Positions 48,395 to 54,949 of a DNA stretch of 64,000 nt are shown here, in pieces. The DNA is taken from positions 1 through 64,000 of the forward strand of contig NZ_SPMX01000066.1 of assembly GCF_012940005.1 (NCBI RefSeq). Reading direction: 5' to 3'. The stretch comes from Candidatus Accumulibacter contiguus. Lineage in GTDB: Bacteria; Pseudomonadota; Gammaproteobacteria; Burkholderiales; Rhodocyclaceae. The notes beneath the pieces are model-generated. The model worked only from the letters and a program-made list of their open reading frames with translations. It was not told the DNA's origin and made no database searches. Both the position numbers and the translations under genes were made by a program. How positions within the stretch are numbered: the first letter of the stretch is position 1; the number at the start of each line of letters is the position of its first letter.

Positions 48395-51373
48395 ATGGAC
48401 ATCCTCCAGCGTGCGACGCAGCTCCTGCGACATTTCATGGGCGAGGATCACCGTGACGCCTGGCTGACACTCGCATTCCACGGCGAGCATCGCGGTATCT
48501 ACGATGGCATTCCGCAGAACGGTGCGACGTCCGTCTTCACGGTTCGCTGCGTTCGCCACCTGCTCGAACGCGGCTGTGTCGGCAGCCGGCATGCGCTGTC
48601 GCTGCTGCTTGAAACTGTACGCGGTGCAGCGGGCAGCGAACTCCAGGAACACTTCCAGACCCTGATCGACGAACTCGACCGCCAGTGCACGATCCAGAGC
48701 CAGCGGGTTGCGCCGGCAACGGATGAGTTGCCCGAGCCGCTGCGCGTTTTTCGTGAAGCGCTCATGGTGCGTCACGAAACCCTGCAACTCACCGAGAAAA
48801 CGCTGCAGGAAATCCTCCGCCATCCGCCGTGCACGCTCGAAGAATACCGTCTCGCGCGCATCGCCGAGTGGTCGCAGCCACGCCATGCACTCGACAAGCG
48901 CTTCACGCGCCTGACCCTGCTGCTCGATCAGGGGCCGGACACGCACGGTCCGCGCTGGCAGGCGCAGCAGAAGCGTTTCAACGACCTGCGCGCGGTACTG
49001 ACCGAGCTCAGCGAGCCCGCGCTGGTACTGCTCGGACCGCCGGGCTGTGGCAAGAGCACCTTACTGCGCCGGCTCGAACTCGACCTCGCGGTCGATGCCT
49101 TGCACGCTGGCGAAGCCGAGCCAGGGTGCTTGAGCTTTTTCGTGCCGCTCAACCGCTATCGCCCGGCGCGCCCGGGCGAAGCACTGCCGACGCCGATGGA
49201 ATGGCTGGCGCAGGAATGGGCGCGGCGCTACCCGAAGCTGCCGGCTTTCGACGAAGTGCTGCACGCGGGGCGCTTCATCCTCCTGCTCGACGCCGTCAAT
49301 GAGCTTCCGCATAGCGATGAGGCCGACTACCGCGAGCGCATCCACTGCTGGCGCGACTTTGTCGCCGAGCTGCCGGCCGGCACACGCGTGCTGTTCTCGT
49401 GCCGCAGCCTCGATTACAGCGCCTCGCTATCGACTCCCAAGCTGTCGGTGCCGCACGTGCGCATCGAGCGGCTCAGCGACCACCAGGTCGAAAAATTCCT
49501 GACCCTCCACGATTCCAGGCACGGACCCGCACTTTGGCGGCAACTGCGCGGTACGCCGCAGCTCGACCTCTTCCGCTCGCTCTTTTTCCTCAAGCTGCTG
49601 CTCGCCCAGGCCGGCGAAGGCGGGCCGGCCTTGTCGGGCAGGGCGGCGCTGTTCAGCGGTTTCGTCCGGCAGGCGCTGCAGCGCGAGATCGCATCCGGCA
49701 ATCCGCTCTTCCGTCCCGGCGCGCTGCTCGGCAGGCGCGACCACGAACGCATCATCCGCTGCCAATGGCGCAACGCCATCGACCTGCCAGTACGCGGGCC
49801 GCTGCTGCCGGCCTTGTGCCAGCTCGCCTTCGCGCTGCAGGCGCGGCGTGTGCCCGGTGAAGTGTCGCGGGTGCGCGTGCCGTACGACGACGCACTCGAA
49901 TTGCTGCGCGCACAGCCCGGCGACGACCTGCTGCACGCCGGCGTCGCGCTGCAGGTTCTCGAAGTACAGTGGGACGATGTGCTCTACGTCCATCAACTGC
50001 TGCAAGAGTATTTTGCCGCGCGGGTGCTGGCCGGCAAACCGCAGCCCAAACTCGTGGCCAGCGCCTGGCGCACCGATGAGATTTCACCGACCCTGGCCGA
50101 GGTGCTGGCCAGCCTCGCCGATTCCGATCCGCTGCCCGAAGTGCCGACGACCGGCTGGGAGGAAACCTTCGTTCTGGCTGCCGCCATGACACCGGCGCCG
50201 GAGGCTTTCGTCACCGCCTTGATGGCGGTGAACCTGCCGCTCGCCGGTCGCTGTGCGGCACAGCCCGACGTCGTCGTCTCGGACACACTGCGGCGGCGGC
50301 TGCAGCAGGCGCTGGTCGTGCGCACTCGCGATCCCGCCGTCGACCTGCGTGCGCGCATCGCCGCCGCCCGTGCCCTCGGCGGACTCGGCGACCCGCGCTT
50401 CGCATGGCACTCCGGTCCACACGGCGAGTTCCTGTTGCCGCCGCTGGTAACTGTCGACGGCGGAAGCTACTCGATCGGCAGCGCTGAAGAGTTGACGGCG
50501 CACCAGGTGCAGCTCAGTCCTTTCGCGATTGGTCAGTTCCCGGTGAGCAACGCCGAATGGAGCGGTTTCATCGACGCTGGCGGCTATGAGGACGAGCGCT
50601 GGTGGCCGAGCAAAGCGGCGCAGCGCTGGCGGCGCGGCGAGGGGGCGACGGAAGCAGAGAAGCAGCAGCAGCGCGAATTCAGGCAGTGGCTGCGTGACAA
50701 TCCGAAGCGTATCGAACAACTGCTCAGAGAGGAGCGGATCAGCTCGAAGCATGCGAAGGAATGGGAGACGATACGGCAGATGTCCGACAGCGAATTTGAC
50801 GCCTTGCTCGATGACTGGTACCCCTCCGGTCGGCAAACACAGCCTGCGTACTGGAATGACCCGGCGTACAATGACCCCAGTCAGCCGGTGGTCGGTATCT
50901 GCTGCTACGAAGCCCTTGCTTACTGCGCGTGGCTGTCGGCGCAAACCGGGCAGAGCTGGCGACTGCCGAGCGAAGACGAATGGGAAGCCGCTGCGCGCGG
51001 GCCTGAGCACAGGCGCTATGCGTGGGGCGAAGTCTTTGACGCGACGCGCTGCAACACTTTCGAGAGCCATGTGCGCGGCACGACACCGATTGGTGTCTTT
51101 CCGGGAGGTGATACGCCGGACGGGCTGGTCGACATGTGCGGCAATGTCTGGGAATGGACCAGCAGTCCCTATTTGCCTTACTCTTATTCACCCAATGGAC
51201 ACCGCAAGGATCCCGAACAAGCCGAGGTCCGGCGCGTGCTGCGCGGCGGCTCCTGGTATTACGGTCGCGGCTTCGCGCGCTGTACCTACCGCCTCGGCTT
51301 CCTCCCTGGCTACCGCAGCGGCTACCTGGGTTTGCGCCTGGTGTGTCTCTCTCCCAGCGTGCAGACCTCCTGA
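48395..51373 (+). CDS. NACHT-type STAND NTPase fused to FGE-sulfatase/C-type-lectin-like domain
   Basis: The 992-aa protein has an N-terminal ~150-residue helical region that may be an effector-associated domain (not assigned). A NACHT NTPase follows, with Walker A LLGPPGCGKSTLL (~211-223) and Walker B FILLLDAVNELP (~291-302). A helical middle region follows, then from ~685 a formylglycine-generating-enzyme-like domain (GSYSIGSAEE, FPVSNAEWSGFI, RLPSEDEWEAAARG, GLVDMCGNVWEW, RVLRGGSW). FGE folds of this kind serve as variable ligand-binding domains in DGR targets and some NLR-like proteins. The C-terminus has the DGR-type GGSW...GLRLV module. It could be an immune-like or signalling receptor. 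No RBS is obvious. GC-rich codon use is like its neighbours. Confidence 0.85.
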   Translation: MDILQRATQLLRHFMGEDHRDAWLTLAFHGEHRGIYDGIPQNGATSVFTVRCVRHLLERGCVGSRHALSLLLETVRGAAGSELQEHFQTLIDELDRQCTIQSQRVAPATDELPEPLRVFREALMVRHETLQLTEKTLQEILRHPPCTLEEYRLARIAEWSQPRHALDKRFTRLTLLLDQGPDTHGPRWQAQQKRFNDLRAVLTELSEPALVLLGPPGCGKSTLLRRLELDLAVDALHAGEAEPGCLSFFVPLNRYRPARPGEALPTPMEWLAQEWARRYPKLPAFDEVLHAGRFILLLDAVNELPHSDEADYRERIHCWRDFVAELPAGTRVLFSCRSLDYSASLSTPKLSVPHVRIERLSDHQVEKFLTLHDSRHGPALWRQLRGTPQLDLFRSLFFLKLLLAQAGEGGPALSGRAALFSGFVRQALQREIASGNPLFRPGALLGRRDHERIIRCQWRNAIDLPVRGPLLPALCQLAFALQARRVPGEVSRVRVPYDDALELLRAQPGDDLLHAGVALQVLEVQWDDVLYVHQLLQEYFAARVLAGKPQPKLVASAWRTDEISPTLAEVLASLADSDPLPEVPTTGWEETFVLAAAMTPAPEAFVTALMAVNLPLAGRCAAQPDVVVSDTLRRRLQQALVVRTRDPAVDLRARIAAARALGGLGDPRFAWHSGPHGEFLLPPLVTVDGGSYSIGSAEELTAHQVQLSPFAIGQFPVSNAEWSGFIDAGGYEDERWWPSKAAQRWRRGEGATEAEKQQQREFRQWLRDNPKRIEQLLREERISSKHAKEWETIRQMSDSEFDALLDDWYPSGRQTQPAYWNDPAYNDPSQPVVGICCYEALAYCAWLSAQTGQSWRLPSEDEWEAAARGPEHRRYAWGEVFDATRCNTFESHVRGTTPIGVFPGGDTPDGLVDMCGNVWEWTSSPYLPYSYSPNGHRKDPEQAEVRRVLRGGSWYYGRGFARCTYRLGFLPGYRSGYLGLRLVCLSPSVQTS
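51232..51354 (+). other. Candidate DGR variable region (VR) in the NACHT-FGE gene
   Basis: After RGGSW the codons read TAT TAC GGT CGC GGC TTC, and later CTC GGC TTC CTC CCT GGC TAC, ending in LGLRLV. Known DGR variable proteins show GGSWxxx...RxxxRxxxxxxxxxxGFRLV, with variable positions encoded by AAC/AAT in the template. Nearly all candidate variable codons here end in C or T, as adenine mutagenesis of AAC/AAT would leave them. High GC content also favours NNC codons, so this is suggestive only. Confidence 0.5.
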
Positions 51374-51396
51374 AAACCCGACCGGCGAGGGTTTTC
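51372..51396 (+). other. Hairpin directly after the candidate VR
   Basis: GAAAACCC (51372-51379) pairs perfectly with GGGTTTTC (51389-51396) around a 9-nt loop; the arm overlaps the stop codon. DGR targets often have a hairpin or cruciform just downstream of VR that aids retrohoming. It lacks a T-run, so it is not a typical terminator, although a termination role is possible. Confidence 0.5.
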
Positions 51397-51428
51397 GCCC
51401 TTGATACGGATGTAAAATTTTATATGCC

Positions 51429-52088
51429 ATGACAAAGTCGTTAACTGATGTTCCAAGTATCTTTTTTCGCAAGTTTTTTTTCCTGGAGTCGCGTCTTTCG
51501 AAGAAAGCCTTCTCGCGAACCGGCTTCCTCAGTTTTCCCCGTCTGATCGCCTGCCTGCTCGGCGGATATCCGTCGAAAGTGCAGTCGGAACTCGACGCGT
51601 TCTTCGCCAATCGGGCGAACCGCGCCGACCTGCTGCGAGAAGTCTCCGCGCAGGCCTTTGCCCAAGCCCGGAAGCAGGTGTCGGCTATCCCCTTCGGGCT
51701 GCTCAACGAGCATTTCCTCGCCTTGGTCGATGCGCAATTCGGCTTTCCTCTCGGGCACGGGTTGCGGGTGCTGGCCGACGATGTCACAGTCCTGCACCTG
51801 ACCCGGTTCGGCAAGCCATTCGTCCGCCCTGTGGTCGACGCCATGGGCTTCGCGCTCTATCTGCCCGGGATCGAGAGGACTCTGGCCACCAAGCGCTAGA
51901 CTCCCGACATCGGCGAGCGCCAGAGGCTCTTCGAACTCCTCGACAAACTCCGCCCCAACGACCTTCTGGTGCTCGACCGCGGTTAGCAGGCCTACTGGCT
52001 CGTCGCCGCCTTGTGGCAGCGAGGACGCCATTTCTGCACAAGAACTTCGTCCAGATCAAGCCAAACCGGTCATACCCCAGAAATTTAA
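51429..52088 (+). pseudogene. IS4-type transposase pseudogene
   Basis: The frame starts at ATG 51429 (MTKSLTDVPSIFFRKFFF) and continues to a TAG at 51897-51899, then reads on in the same frame (TPDIGERQRLFELLDKLRPNDLLVLDRG) to a second TAG at 51984-51986 and a final stop at 52088. The first DDE aspartate region (VVDAMGFALYLP) and the second (LVLDRG) are recognisable, but the C-terminal third is missing. Two in-frame amber stops and the truncation indicate a dead copy. Confidence 0.75.
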
Positions 52089-52210
52089 AGTAAAATCCAC
52101 GTTTATCAAACGCTTACAAGAGAAGAATATGGCTATCTTCTGATAGGTTGAGAGCGTTGATTCGTGACCCACCGCGACATTCACATCACATGACGCATGT
52201 CGACGGCAGG

Positions 52211-54949
52211 CTATACGCGCTCCAGGTACTTCCAAAGTGCGTTGCGGAAGGTGTCGTTTCCATTGCTGTCCCCAAAGACGCGCGTGGAGATCTCGAGTCC
52301 CAGCTTACGGTAACTCTCCCACTGAGCTTCATCGTAGAACTGGTCGGTCGTCGACTCCTGGGGAAAGTCTGGGTGAGCGGAATGATACTGCACGAGATCG
52401 ACCGGTACCCCTGAGACGAGCCGCGGCTTGAGAACAACAACGTGAGCATCCGGAGCGTTCCTGGCAACAGGATTGGCCCCCGCATGGAACACCTTCAACA
52501 GCAATGCGCATTTGGCGCTCTCAGGCCCACCTTTATCGCCAACAGGCTCAAAGTCCTCAGGTATACCGAATACAGGTCCGAGAATCTTGTCTTCCGCTAT
52601 TTCGCGGTCGACCTCGACCTCAATACGAAAATCGATGCGCGCCAGGCGCACCAGATTGGCGATGTCGTCAAACTGATACCCGGGATCGCACCCGCAGTCG
52701 CAAACGACGATCAAGCGAACTTTCCGCTCGGGCCGTAGCAGCTCGTAGATGGCAGTGTTTTCGAAATGGCCGCCGTCGGAGAGATACAGTAGAGGCCGGC
52801 GGGTCCCATGAAAGGTCGCAAACAATTCATAGAACAGGTACGTCTGGGTCTTGAACAGGGTGCGGATGCCTTTACCAAATCCGGAGCCCATCCCTGTAAC
52901 TTGTTTGCCAGCTCCGGAGCCCTTTCCTGAGCTGGTGATTCCAGACGCCCACCAGCGGCCCAGCCGGATATTCGTCAATCCCATGAGGAGCGACAAGCCG
53001 AGTGTAGTGCCTCGTCCCAGAGCGGTGGAGAAAGCTGCGCCAGAGACCCCTACCCACTCACCAAGCGTCAGTTCAGCATCCAGTTCGCCGCTGCTGATCT
53101 TGCCTGGACCTGGGACGAGCTTGCCATCGACAACGAAGCCCGATGGCAGGACGGCTAGCGGCTTTCCCTTGCGATCCCTCTGAACGAGTTGCTCACCCGG
53201 GTCGCTGGTCTGGTTCAGGCACACATTGATAATATGAATCGGCATCAACGAATTATCATAGTACCGATCCATGGTCATCTGGTCCCCGGGGGCCGGTTCG
53301 GCGACACTGCGAAGCTTGTCGCTGCCTTTCCCAAAACGGTCGCCATTGCTGGCACCCAGGTAGGCGCGGGTAAGGCGTGCGCTATAAAGCGTTTGCAGGG
53401 TCGACAGATTGAGAAATCCGGGAAACCGGCCGCCGACGAGGGAGAGGATCAGGGCAATGCCAAATGTCACGGCAAGTGCAATGACTGCGTCGACGTGGTC
53501 AGTCTGAATTGTCGATTCGAGAAGGTCGACTGGCGACTCGCCCCGCCAACGAATCCACAGCACCAAGAGCGACCAAAACATGGCCGTCAGGAACAGCAAG
53601 GCGACTCCGCCAATCGTCGCGGCGGCACTGGCCGGGATTTTGCTCAGCCAACCTCCCTTCGCCGCGTCAGGCAGCGAGGTCGCCATCTGCCGGAGTACCC
53701 AGGCCAATCCGCCGGTTGCGGCCGTTGATGTCAGCCATGCGGCGATCCGATGGTCCAGAACATAAATCGACTGGGCTGTCGTATCCACCAAAGCCACCAA
53801 GGTCACGCCGGCCAACCAGATACACCCGGTGGTAAGCATGCGTGTCAGGGTGACACGCTGCACTCCAATGGAAACGGCGGTACGTGCAGTCGTCGCGTAC
53901 CAGACGAAGGCACCCACGCTTAAGGCCCCGAGAGCCCCCAAGGCTCTTGCGAACCCACGCCAATTCGGCCCCAGTTTCGAATAACAGGCGGCAGCCACAA
54001 CGACAAGGAGGAAGCCAAGCAGCAACCCGAAAAGCCCTGCTTTCGAAAACACCTTCGGCCGGGTCTGAACCGTTCCACCACGGGGTGGGTGCGTAAACCA
54101 GAAGGCGAGTCCGCAGGGGATCACCCACAATAACGCAACCGGCAACGAAACCCACCACACGGGACTCCACCAAACCCAGCCGCCGCAATCGGTCACGCCC
54201 TTCAACAGGGACAACTCGTATGTACGGTAGGTCTCTAGCCAGCATCCGGTACACGAAATCGCAACAAGGCCGGCGCGACCCAATGCGATCAACGCGAACG
54301 CCGTCAGGAACACAATGCCCAAGACGTATTGCACAGAAAACCAGTTTCGCACCGCCAGCGATGCTGCATACACCATGTCGCCGGAACCGGTTGGGGCCAT
54401 GTACCGCCCATTTTCTCGCAACCAGGCGAGCGGCGCCGCACCTGGACGTTCAGGGGTGAAGTGAACCCGGCTGGTGAGTCGTCCGGGAGGTTCGTGTGCG
54501 AAGACCTCGTACGCTTGTTGTGCAGTTTTTGCATCCAAGGCTGGGTCCGGAGCATCACCTTGCTTGGGAGGATCATCTTCCTTGTTTAAACGCCCTCTCG
54601 CAAATAGGCTGCCGAAAAAACTGCCTATATAGCCACCCCCACTGACGGTCGAGAGGTAGTCGAACTGGGGAAGCAGACTCTCACGGCTACTGCCGGACTG
54701 GCCCGACTTCTCGATCGATGAACCCTGCGGACGGGGCGCCCTGGCGAGGCCTTGCAGGACGCCTAGGCAAAACGTGGCGCTGCGGATCCCTCCACCGGAG
54801 AAGGCAAGCGCCCATTGCTCGTCGTCGTGTCCTTCCGGCCGGACGACCTTGAAGCCCTCACGGCGCCCTTTTGCACGCTGGATTTCAGCTTCGTACGGCG
54901 GAGCGGTTCCCTGCTCGCCTGGTGAATCTGGGGACAAGTGGTAAGACAT
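52211..54949 (-). CDS. Membrane-embedded patatin-like phospholipase
   Basis: The 912-aa protein has an N-terminal patatin half with the oxyanion motif SGGGIRSATF (~49-58) and the likely nucleophile in STVSGGGYIG. A block of several transmembrane helices follows (residues ~200-510). The C-terminal patatin half has the catalytic Asp in LSDGGHFENTAIYEL. This split, membrane-inserted form resembles a subgroup of large bacterial patatins of unknown role; lipid acyl hydrolysis is expected. AGGAGG precedes ATG 54949. It stands alone between mobile-element remnants, suggesting an accessory location. Confidence 0.85.
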   Translation of the reverse strand: MSYHLSPDSPGEQGTAPPYEAEIQRAKGRREGFKVVRPEGHDDEQWALAFSGGGIRSATFCLGVLQGLARAPRPQGSSIEKSGQSGSSRESLLPQFDYLSTVSGGGYIGSFFGSLFARGRLNKEDDPPKQGDAPDPALDAKTAQQAYEVFAHEPPGRLTSRVHFTPERPGAAPLAWLRENGRYMAPTGSGDMVYAASLAVRNWFSVQYVLGIVFLTAFALIALGRAGLVAISCTGCWLETYRTYELSLLKGVTDCGGWVWWSPVWWVSLPVALLWVIPCGLAFWFTHPPRGGTVQTRPKVFSKAGLFGLLLGFLLVVVAAACYSKLGPNWRGFARALGALGALSVGAFVWYATTARTAVSIGVQRVTLTRMLTTGCIWLAGVTLVALVDTTAQSIYVLDHRIAAWLTSTAATGGLAWVLRQMATSLPDAAKGGWLSKIPASAAATIGGVALLFLTAMFWSLLVLWIRWRGESPVDLLESTIQTDHVDAVIALAVTFGIALILSLVGGRFPGFLNLSTLQTLYSARLTRAYLGASNGDRFGKGSDKLRSVAEPAPGDQMTMDRYYDNSLMPIHIINVCLNQTSDPGEQLVQRDRKGKPLAVLPSGFVVDGKLVPGPGKISSGELDAELTLGEWVGVSGAAFSTALGRGTTLGLSLLMGLTNIRLGRWWASGITSSGKGSGAGKQVTGMGSGFGKGIRTLFKTQTYLFYELFATFHGTRRPLLYLSDGGHFENTAIYELLRPERKVRLIVVCDCGCDPGYQFDDIANLVRLARIDFRIEVEVDREIAEDKILGPVFGIPEDFEPVGDKGGPESAKCALLLKVFHAGANPVARNAPDAHVVVLKPRLVSGVPVDLVQYHSAHPDFPQESTTDQFYDEAQWESYRKLGLEISTRVFGDSNGNDTFRNALWKYLERV

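Follow-up and report, generated by a model that had tools for sequence, protein, structure and literature searches.

A NACHT receptor gene of Candidatus Accumulibacter contiguus as a probable retired target of a diversity-generating retroelement

Does a receptor gene that bears the marks of a diversity-generating retroelement (DGR) still belong to one? The question is raised by a gene in a 64,000-nucleotide stretch of DNA from Candidatus Accumulibacter contiguus (contig NZ_SPMX01000066.1, positions 1 to 64,000; hereafter, the window), which encodes a 992-residue protein composed of an EAD8 adaptor domain, a NACHT NTPase domain and a C-terminal domain of the FGE-sulfatase (C-type-lectin-like) type. 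A first-pass annotation had proposed that the recognition surface of this protein is being rewritten with the help of a distant reverse transcriptase. The comparisons described here make a DGR origin of the end module nearly certain. A DGR probably no longer acts on the gene, which is probably a retired target with one receptor variant fixed.

The evidence lies in the last part of the protein, where the end module GGSW...GLRLV, correctly recognised at first pass, forms the 33-codon core of a variable repeat (VR; GGSWYYGRGFARCTYRLGFLPGYRSGYLGLRLV) located C-terminally in the FGE/C-type-lectin-like domain, as judged by Pfam and phmmer. Compared with the template repeat (TR) of a sister Accumulibacter genome (G023:C136), this core is changed at 18 of the 24 template adenines and at 8 of the 75 other bases (Fisher 4.6e-9), which supports the earlier suggestion of a DGR variable repeat in an NLR-like (NOD-like-receptor-like) protein. 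The template adenines are changed at 9/10 first and 9/14 second codon positions, and the other bases at 3/23, 0/19 and 5/33 of positions 1–3, respectively; in contrast, most changes in the gene body fall at third codon positions. Among 78 control FGE tails taken from loci L100-L178, none reached the p value of the window; the lowest, 1.8e-7, belongs to a tail of this family that is likewise from Accumulibacter, and 4.1e-5 comes next. The codon pattern on which the earlier proposal had been built, NNC/NNT codons at the positions of template AAC-type codons, is present in all 13 codons facing AAC or GAC in the template. However, 14 of the 20 other module codons share this ending, and with the residues and codon usage of this gene the pattern has a chance of 0.035, so that by itself it is too weak to prove a DGR origin. 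The FGE part also matched, by sequence in phmmer, the solved structures of ToxD, EgtB and formylglycine-generating enzymes and, more weakly (E 9.7e-7), variable protein 1 of Treponema denticola (2y3c), a known DGR variable protein.

Related genes are concentrated in the same genus. Among 150 relatives searched, 18 genomes besides the own one hold matches at E 1e-30, 17 of them in the genus, and at this threshold another ten genomes of the genus yielded nothing. The named loci of highest identity all belong to Candidatus Accumulibacter (67 to 75% in the best segment), and identity to the closest kin genes is 64 to 74%. In a tree of NACHT parts, ten rows including the window form one clade (support 100/100) whose inner order is not settled, nor is the position of the window in the FGE tree; both trees left out blast pieces shorter than 250 (NACHT) or 170 (FGE) query residues, and the NACHT piece of G023 was dropped in this way. 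One of the closest counterparts is the locus G023:C136 (L187). It holds an orthologous NACHT-FGE gene, partial at a contig end, with a template of matching type, and differs from the window in that a VR with its stem-loop, the template and a reverse transcriptase are all still present together.

The genome of the window holds DGRs of its own. Its assembly (5.02 Mb, 167 contigs, 98.68% complete) contains ten RVT_1 matches, all on other contigs, in agreement with the first-pass remark that no reverse transcriptase is visible nearby. Four own DGR reverse transcriptases, on C132, C78, C68 and C57, adjoin N-rich template repeats with two FGE target genes each. These loci are L055, L056, L057 and L058, respectively; seven of the eight targets were scanned and carry FGE plus, in some, TIR, SEFIR, nSTAND1, NACHT or caspase domains, in architectures that include TIR-nSTAND1-FGE, TIR-FGE and caspase-NACHT-FGE. 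When VRs were matched to templates over 114 nt, the window VR showed 35/86, 24/88, 35/89 and 34/88 non-adenine mismatches to the C132, C78, C68 and C57 templates, respectively, and even the best of these values led to their rejection as its source. Nine other own VRs, in contrast, find a partner among the own templates by this test, with 0 to 10 such mismatches: 0/86 and 1/86 for C132, 4/88 and 4/88 for C57, 6/89 and 7/89 for C68, 10/88 and 5/88 for C78, and 0/86 for a remote gene on C47 (L059:1867-4692, minus strand, 941 aa), which fits the template of C132, another contig, with 12 of 28 adenines changed. To judge from its sequence, this last gene is a candidate trans-diversified target.

With the kin template as query, the assembly yielded seven places—the window, the four own templates, a VR of C57 and a truncated tail on C44—and no further template (27 of 43 candidates scored), and no fifth own template was found with the window VR as query (40 of 49 candidates scored). 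Also considered as a source was C130 (C130:8046-10171, in L062), a decayed DGR-like locus where a reverse-transcriptase fragment with a stop lies between two FGE pieces; it showed no fitting template. Thus, the adenine test proposed at first pass gives its signal against a sister template, and no near-identical template was found in the own genome; this absence, which the annotation would have counted against itself in a complete genome, concerns a 98.68% complete assembly in 167 contigs. With all four own templates misfitting, present diversification by a distant own reverse transcriptase was not borne out.

An active remote DGR might still exist if template and reverse transcriptase lay in sequence missing from the assembly, or in only some members of the population, and rewrote the gene in trans. 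The C47 gene is a remote target in this very genome, matching the C132 template at 86 of 86 non-adenine positions, and the work of Dore et al. (PMC10907252) attributes some loci to trans activity. Furthermore, the assembly stops short of completeness, and the 11/88 non-adenine mismatches of the window VR to the kin template over 114 nt are close to the 10/88 of C78a, an own cis target. This explanation is nonetheless unlikely, given that no fitting template was found, that the homing-site segment differs from the kin template at 4 of 28 bases, and that a template-type flank occupies the position of the VR flank.

This flank bears on how diversification might have ended. Of 25 diagnostic sites behind the window VR, 20 are template-like, 2 are VR-like (51354 and 51384, the latter at tail position 41) and 3 are neither; since 51354 is VR-like and 51359 template-like, a breakpoint is placed between them, and the VR-like base at 51384 is read as a later change. 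In letters, several kin targets continue behind the VR with TGTGTCTCCCCCATCCTGAAGCGCTGA, the G023 template with TGTGTCTCCCACATCGTGCAGGCCTTCTGAAAACCCGGCCCGCGAGGG, and the window with TGTCTCTCTCCCAGCGTGCAGACCTCCTGAAAACCCGACCGGCGAGGG. By comparison, nine of the 14 flanks behind kin VRs show the VR-type base at 17 to 25 of these sites, including those of the NACHT orthologues of G023 and G025; the flank of G016, which is the VR reference itself, is counted among the nine. Besides the window itself, the matches that extend to 51391 in 28 genomes of the genus, the own one counted, are two templates (G023:C136 and G009:C104) and one gene end (G026:C90), those ending at 51367-51368 are two templates of another type (G005 and G013) and the gene end G026:C116, and the kin VR matches end at 51364 or earlier. 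The end of the window gene is therefore itself template-side DNA, which implies recombination between VR and TR, and it is likely that the flank was derived in this way.

The two gene ends of G026 provide a parallel. Both G026:C90 and G026:C116 are joined to a template flank and keep the template letters, as seen at L188:9279-9377 and L205:9237-9335, with a reverse-transcriptase fragment after the former. In G026:C90 (L188), 0 of 26 adenines are changed and the template flank continues for at least 96 nt, the reverse-transcriptase fragment lying behind it. This gene resembles that of the window in the joining of template flank and gene end, and differs from it in the retention of template letters, in a NACHT part split over three frames and in the reverse-transcriptase fragment left behind. 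Collapses of this kind seem to be recurrent, since two gene ends show them in addition to the window gene.

Alternatively, the tail of the window gene could be ancestral, with the original C-terminus kept, the template duplicated from it, the VR-type tails of the kin derived, and the cassette lost by other means. The template flank of G023 contains an in-frame stop (CVSHIVQAF, then stop), as would be expected of a former gene end. This alternative is improbable, however, because all nine classifiable kin VR flanks (of 14) are VR-type, including those of the NACHT orthologues of G023 and G025, and because G026 holds collapse products with template letters. Even less probable is a mis-homing event, in which the last cDNA would have been primed in the spacer behind the template and integrated with part of it, giving VR and flank in one step. 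According to PMC12875486, cDNA synthesis in the DGR of the Bordetella phage starts from an adenine of the spacer, where the spacer adjoins the 3' side of the template, and the visible template flank of the window is short; against this, none of the flank adenines (AAAACCC) is mutated, and the long flank of G026:C90, with the reverse-transcriptase fragment behind it, fits recombination. Finally, the idea that the protein is an ordinary FGE-domain protein without any DGR past, its codon pattern a coincidence of a GC-rich genome, could invoke the chance of that pattern and the greater change at loop codons in other FGE tails, but is judged refuted by the adenine test, whose p value lies below those of all the control tails, and by the G023 locus.

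The hairpin noted at first pass behind the VR is present (GAAAACCC/GGGTTTTC), its left arm in the template flank and its right arm crossing the junction, and may act as a terminator. Of 2000 random 60-mers drawn from the window, 26 contain a stem of at least 8 bp, and the folding energy of the hairpin does not stand out (z -1.44), being equalled or bettered by 18 of 200 shuffled sequences. It was rejected as the customary DGR stem-loop: most kin VRs are followed by a GC-rich stem farther on, which is 9 bp long and about 49 nt past the stop codon behind one VR each in G016, G022, G023, G025 and G027 and lies at a different place behind others, and in the own C132 and C78 targets, too, the GC-rich stem past the stop codon is at another place than this hairpin. 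Three kin VR rows (L187:8581, L191:9050 and L195:1656) have no stem of at least 6 bp within 110 nt. According to PMC12875486, deletion of the inverted repeat behind the homing site impaired retrohoming severely, though not completely.

Several points weigh against retirement by recombination with the template. First of all, the VR-like part of the flank is the single site 51354, and 51384 is VR-like within the template-like part; 5 of the 14 kin VR flanks are unclassifiable in an ungapped comparison (among them that of G009, whose VR is out of frame with the template), and the join may be a chimaera of the assembly. Second, the in-frame stop in the template flank leaves room for an old gene tail, and the cognate template might be missing from the data, the assembly being incomplete and in many contigs. 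Third, the adenine bias is partly general to FGE tails, as the control tails are likewise changed more at these loop codons, and the 11/88 non-adenine mismatches are no proof of drift; a claim of drift from this value was dropped in view of the 10/88 of C78a to its own template. The lack of the GC-rich stem, with another 8-bp stem present, is weak evidence, since three kin rows are stemless too. Moreover, the trees do not settle the closest relative of the gene. In favour of the explanation, the reading frame of the gene is open, and against eight kin sequences, three of them represented by the FGE part only, dN (non-synonymous substitution) is 0.19-0.26 and dS (synonymous substitution) 0.69-0.94, a dN/dS of about 0.23-0.31 that also spans the period before retirement.

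According to the retired-target explanation, the gene would descend from an EAD8-TIR-NACHT-FGE receptor, and an error-prone reverse transcriptase, copying a nearby template, would have rewritten the recognition surface at the C-terminus of that receptor. Recombination of the VR with its own template over their common 3' end would then have deleted the template together with the VR-side flank, and what was left of the cassette would have been lost to an insertion sequence and a further deletion. In this way the final VR variant would be fixed, leaving the gene as, if anything, a constant sensor, in which binding of a ligand by the FGE surface would lead to oligomerisation of the NACHT domain and to recruitment of a partner by the EAD8 adaptor.

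The NACHT-FGE fusion described at first pass is real, although the N-terminal EAD8 domain had been overlooked. The NACHT domain retains the P-loop motif GPPGCGKST in alignment with its kin. A difference lies between EAD8 and NACHT, where the kin carry a TIR domain of about 120 residues: TIR_2 was found in five of the five full-length kin NACHT proteins scanned, with the architecture EAD8-TIR-NACHT-FGE in G022 and G025, and TIR-NACHT-FGE in G019, G020 and G026:C75 (the TIR match of the latter being partial). The window protein has no TIR domain, and no N-terminal enzyme was found in it with Pfam. The own assembly yielded no EAD8 match other than that of this protein; in the genus, 12 of the 28 genomes, own included, have at least one. 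The missing TIR domain and the failure to find a second EAD8 protein in the assembly suggest that signalling may be lost or dominant-negative, and the present role predicted for the protein is most likely that of a fixed sensor with reduced signalling ability. None of the PADLOC models matched the protein at E 0.001, and a plasmid search returned four records with partial FGE-type matches, none of them reaching 80% query coverage.

Receptors of this kind are already known. The work of Dore et al. 2024 (PMC10907252) describes EAD8-nSTAND1-FGE and NACHT-CLec proteins as DGR targets and proposed antigen sensors, lists Accumulibacter among organisms with several related DGRs, and reports DGR parts interrupted or replaced by transposons and arrays resembling miniature inverted-repeat transposable elements (MITEs); Accumulibacter DGRs are also mentioned in the earlier DiGReF paper (PMC3521204). 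The targets of DGR 6 (EAD8-nSTAND1-FGE) and DGR 3 (NACHT-CLec) of Thiohalocapsa PB-PSB1 combine a STAND NTPase with a C-terminal FGE or C-lectin VR, as the window gene does, and the former shares its EAD8 adaptor. On the other hand, the missing parts in Thiohalocapsa are replaced by MITE-like arrays or interrupted by transposons, whereas the window gene has a template-side end and lacks the TIR domain of its kin. Antiviral STAND proteins and bacterial NACHTs, as presented there, likewise have a signalling part at the N-terminus, a central NTPase and a sensor at the C-terminus, and the window protein differs from them in the lack of a detected N-terminal enzyme and of a PADLOC match. In PMC7159879, EAD8 is listed with adaptors whose main task is the recruitment of effectors.

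Most accounts of DGRs concern diversifying ones, and no description of how a lineage ceases to diversify and retains one variant was found in the literature searched. Neither was a report of VR-TR collapse, or of template loss by recombination with the VR, in searches made mostly without subscription papers and without bioRxiv preprints. VR-TR recombination might, quite tentatively, be a recurrent exit from hypermutation, in which template and VR-side flank are lost at once and a single receptor variant is fixed; among the Accumulibacter cases seen, the mutated VR is kept in the window and the template letters are kept twice in G026. If so, targets may persist, or travel, without the diversifying machinery. 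G016, a genome in one contig and 100% complete, has a VR (G016:C1:1603476-1603615, L202) that differs from the G023 template at 1/88 non-adenine and 15/26 adenine positions, while the genus search returned only two places there, neither being a template nearly identical to that one; five reverse-transcriptase matches in this genome are 28-30% identical to the DGR query, and no close DGR reverse transcriptase was found. The VR of G027, in a locus near a contig end, differs from the same template at 0/88 non-adenine and 16/26 adenine positions, and that genome gave no match to the DGR reverse-transcriptase query. In view of these two cases, targets without machinery are probably more than an assembly effect, and the genus offers a graded series of intact, template-less, collapsed and decayed loci. 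Such an exit, if confirmed, would be the prokaryotic counterpart of a somatically diversified receptor becoming frozen in the germ line, and a receptor fixed by template loss would allow asking whether frozen variants persist through recognising a common phage. It also advises caution, as a VR-like codon pattern does not equal a live DGR.

Table 1. Coordinates of the features of the EAD8-NACHT-FGE gene and its downstream flank in the window.
Feature	Position	Strand	Evidence
EAD8-NACHT-FGE gene, probable former DGR target (variable protein)	48395..51373	+	ORF (open reading frame) of 992 aa; Pfam; kin comparison
EAD8 adaptor domain	48404..48676	+	Pfam residues 4-94, E 4.3e-10
Site of the kin TIR domain, here without TIR, EAD8 nearly abutting the NACHT part	48690..48795	+	Alignment, blastn
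NACHT NTPase domain	49022..49501	+	Pfam residues 210-369, E 3.1e-10; alignment
FGE-sulfatase (C-type-lectin-like) sensor domain	50438..51343	+	Best Pfam match residues 811-983, E 2.4e-49
VR core with end module	51245..51343	+	Comparison with G023:C136 template
Counterpart of the homing-site segment (IMH, initiation of mutagenic homing), VR 3' end	51326..51353	+	4/28 bases differ from kin template
Inferred VR/TR recombination breakpoint	51354..51359	+	51354 VR-like; 51359 and most later diagnostic bases TR-like
Flank from behind the template repeat, giving the last codons and stop codon	51359..51391	+	Diagnostic sites, genus matches
8-bp hairpin, possible terminator	51372..51396	+	Left arm template flank, right arm crosses junction
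Insertion-sequence remnant	51398..52159	+	Versus C154 copy: left end missing, about 535 bp internal deletion

Six unassigned bases (51392-51397) separate the template flank from the insertion-sequence remnant. The family of the remnant rests on a more complete copy on C154, which encodes a DDE_Tnp_1 transposase, as Pfam gave no match for the 156-aa frame of the remnant itself. Directly after the remnant, 52211-54949 on the minus strand encodes a 912-aa protein with a sub-threshold Patatin match (23.0 against a cut-off of 27.7 bits) and, judged by eye, membrane-like stretches in its middle part.

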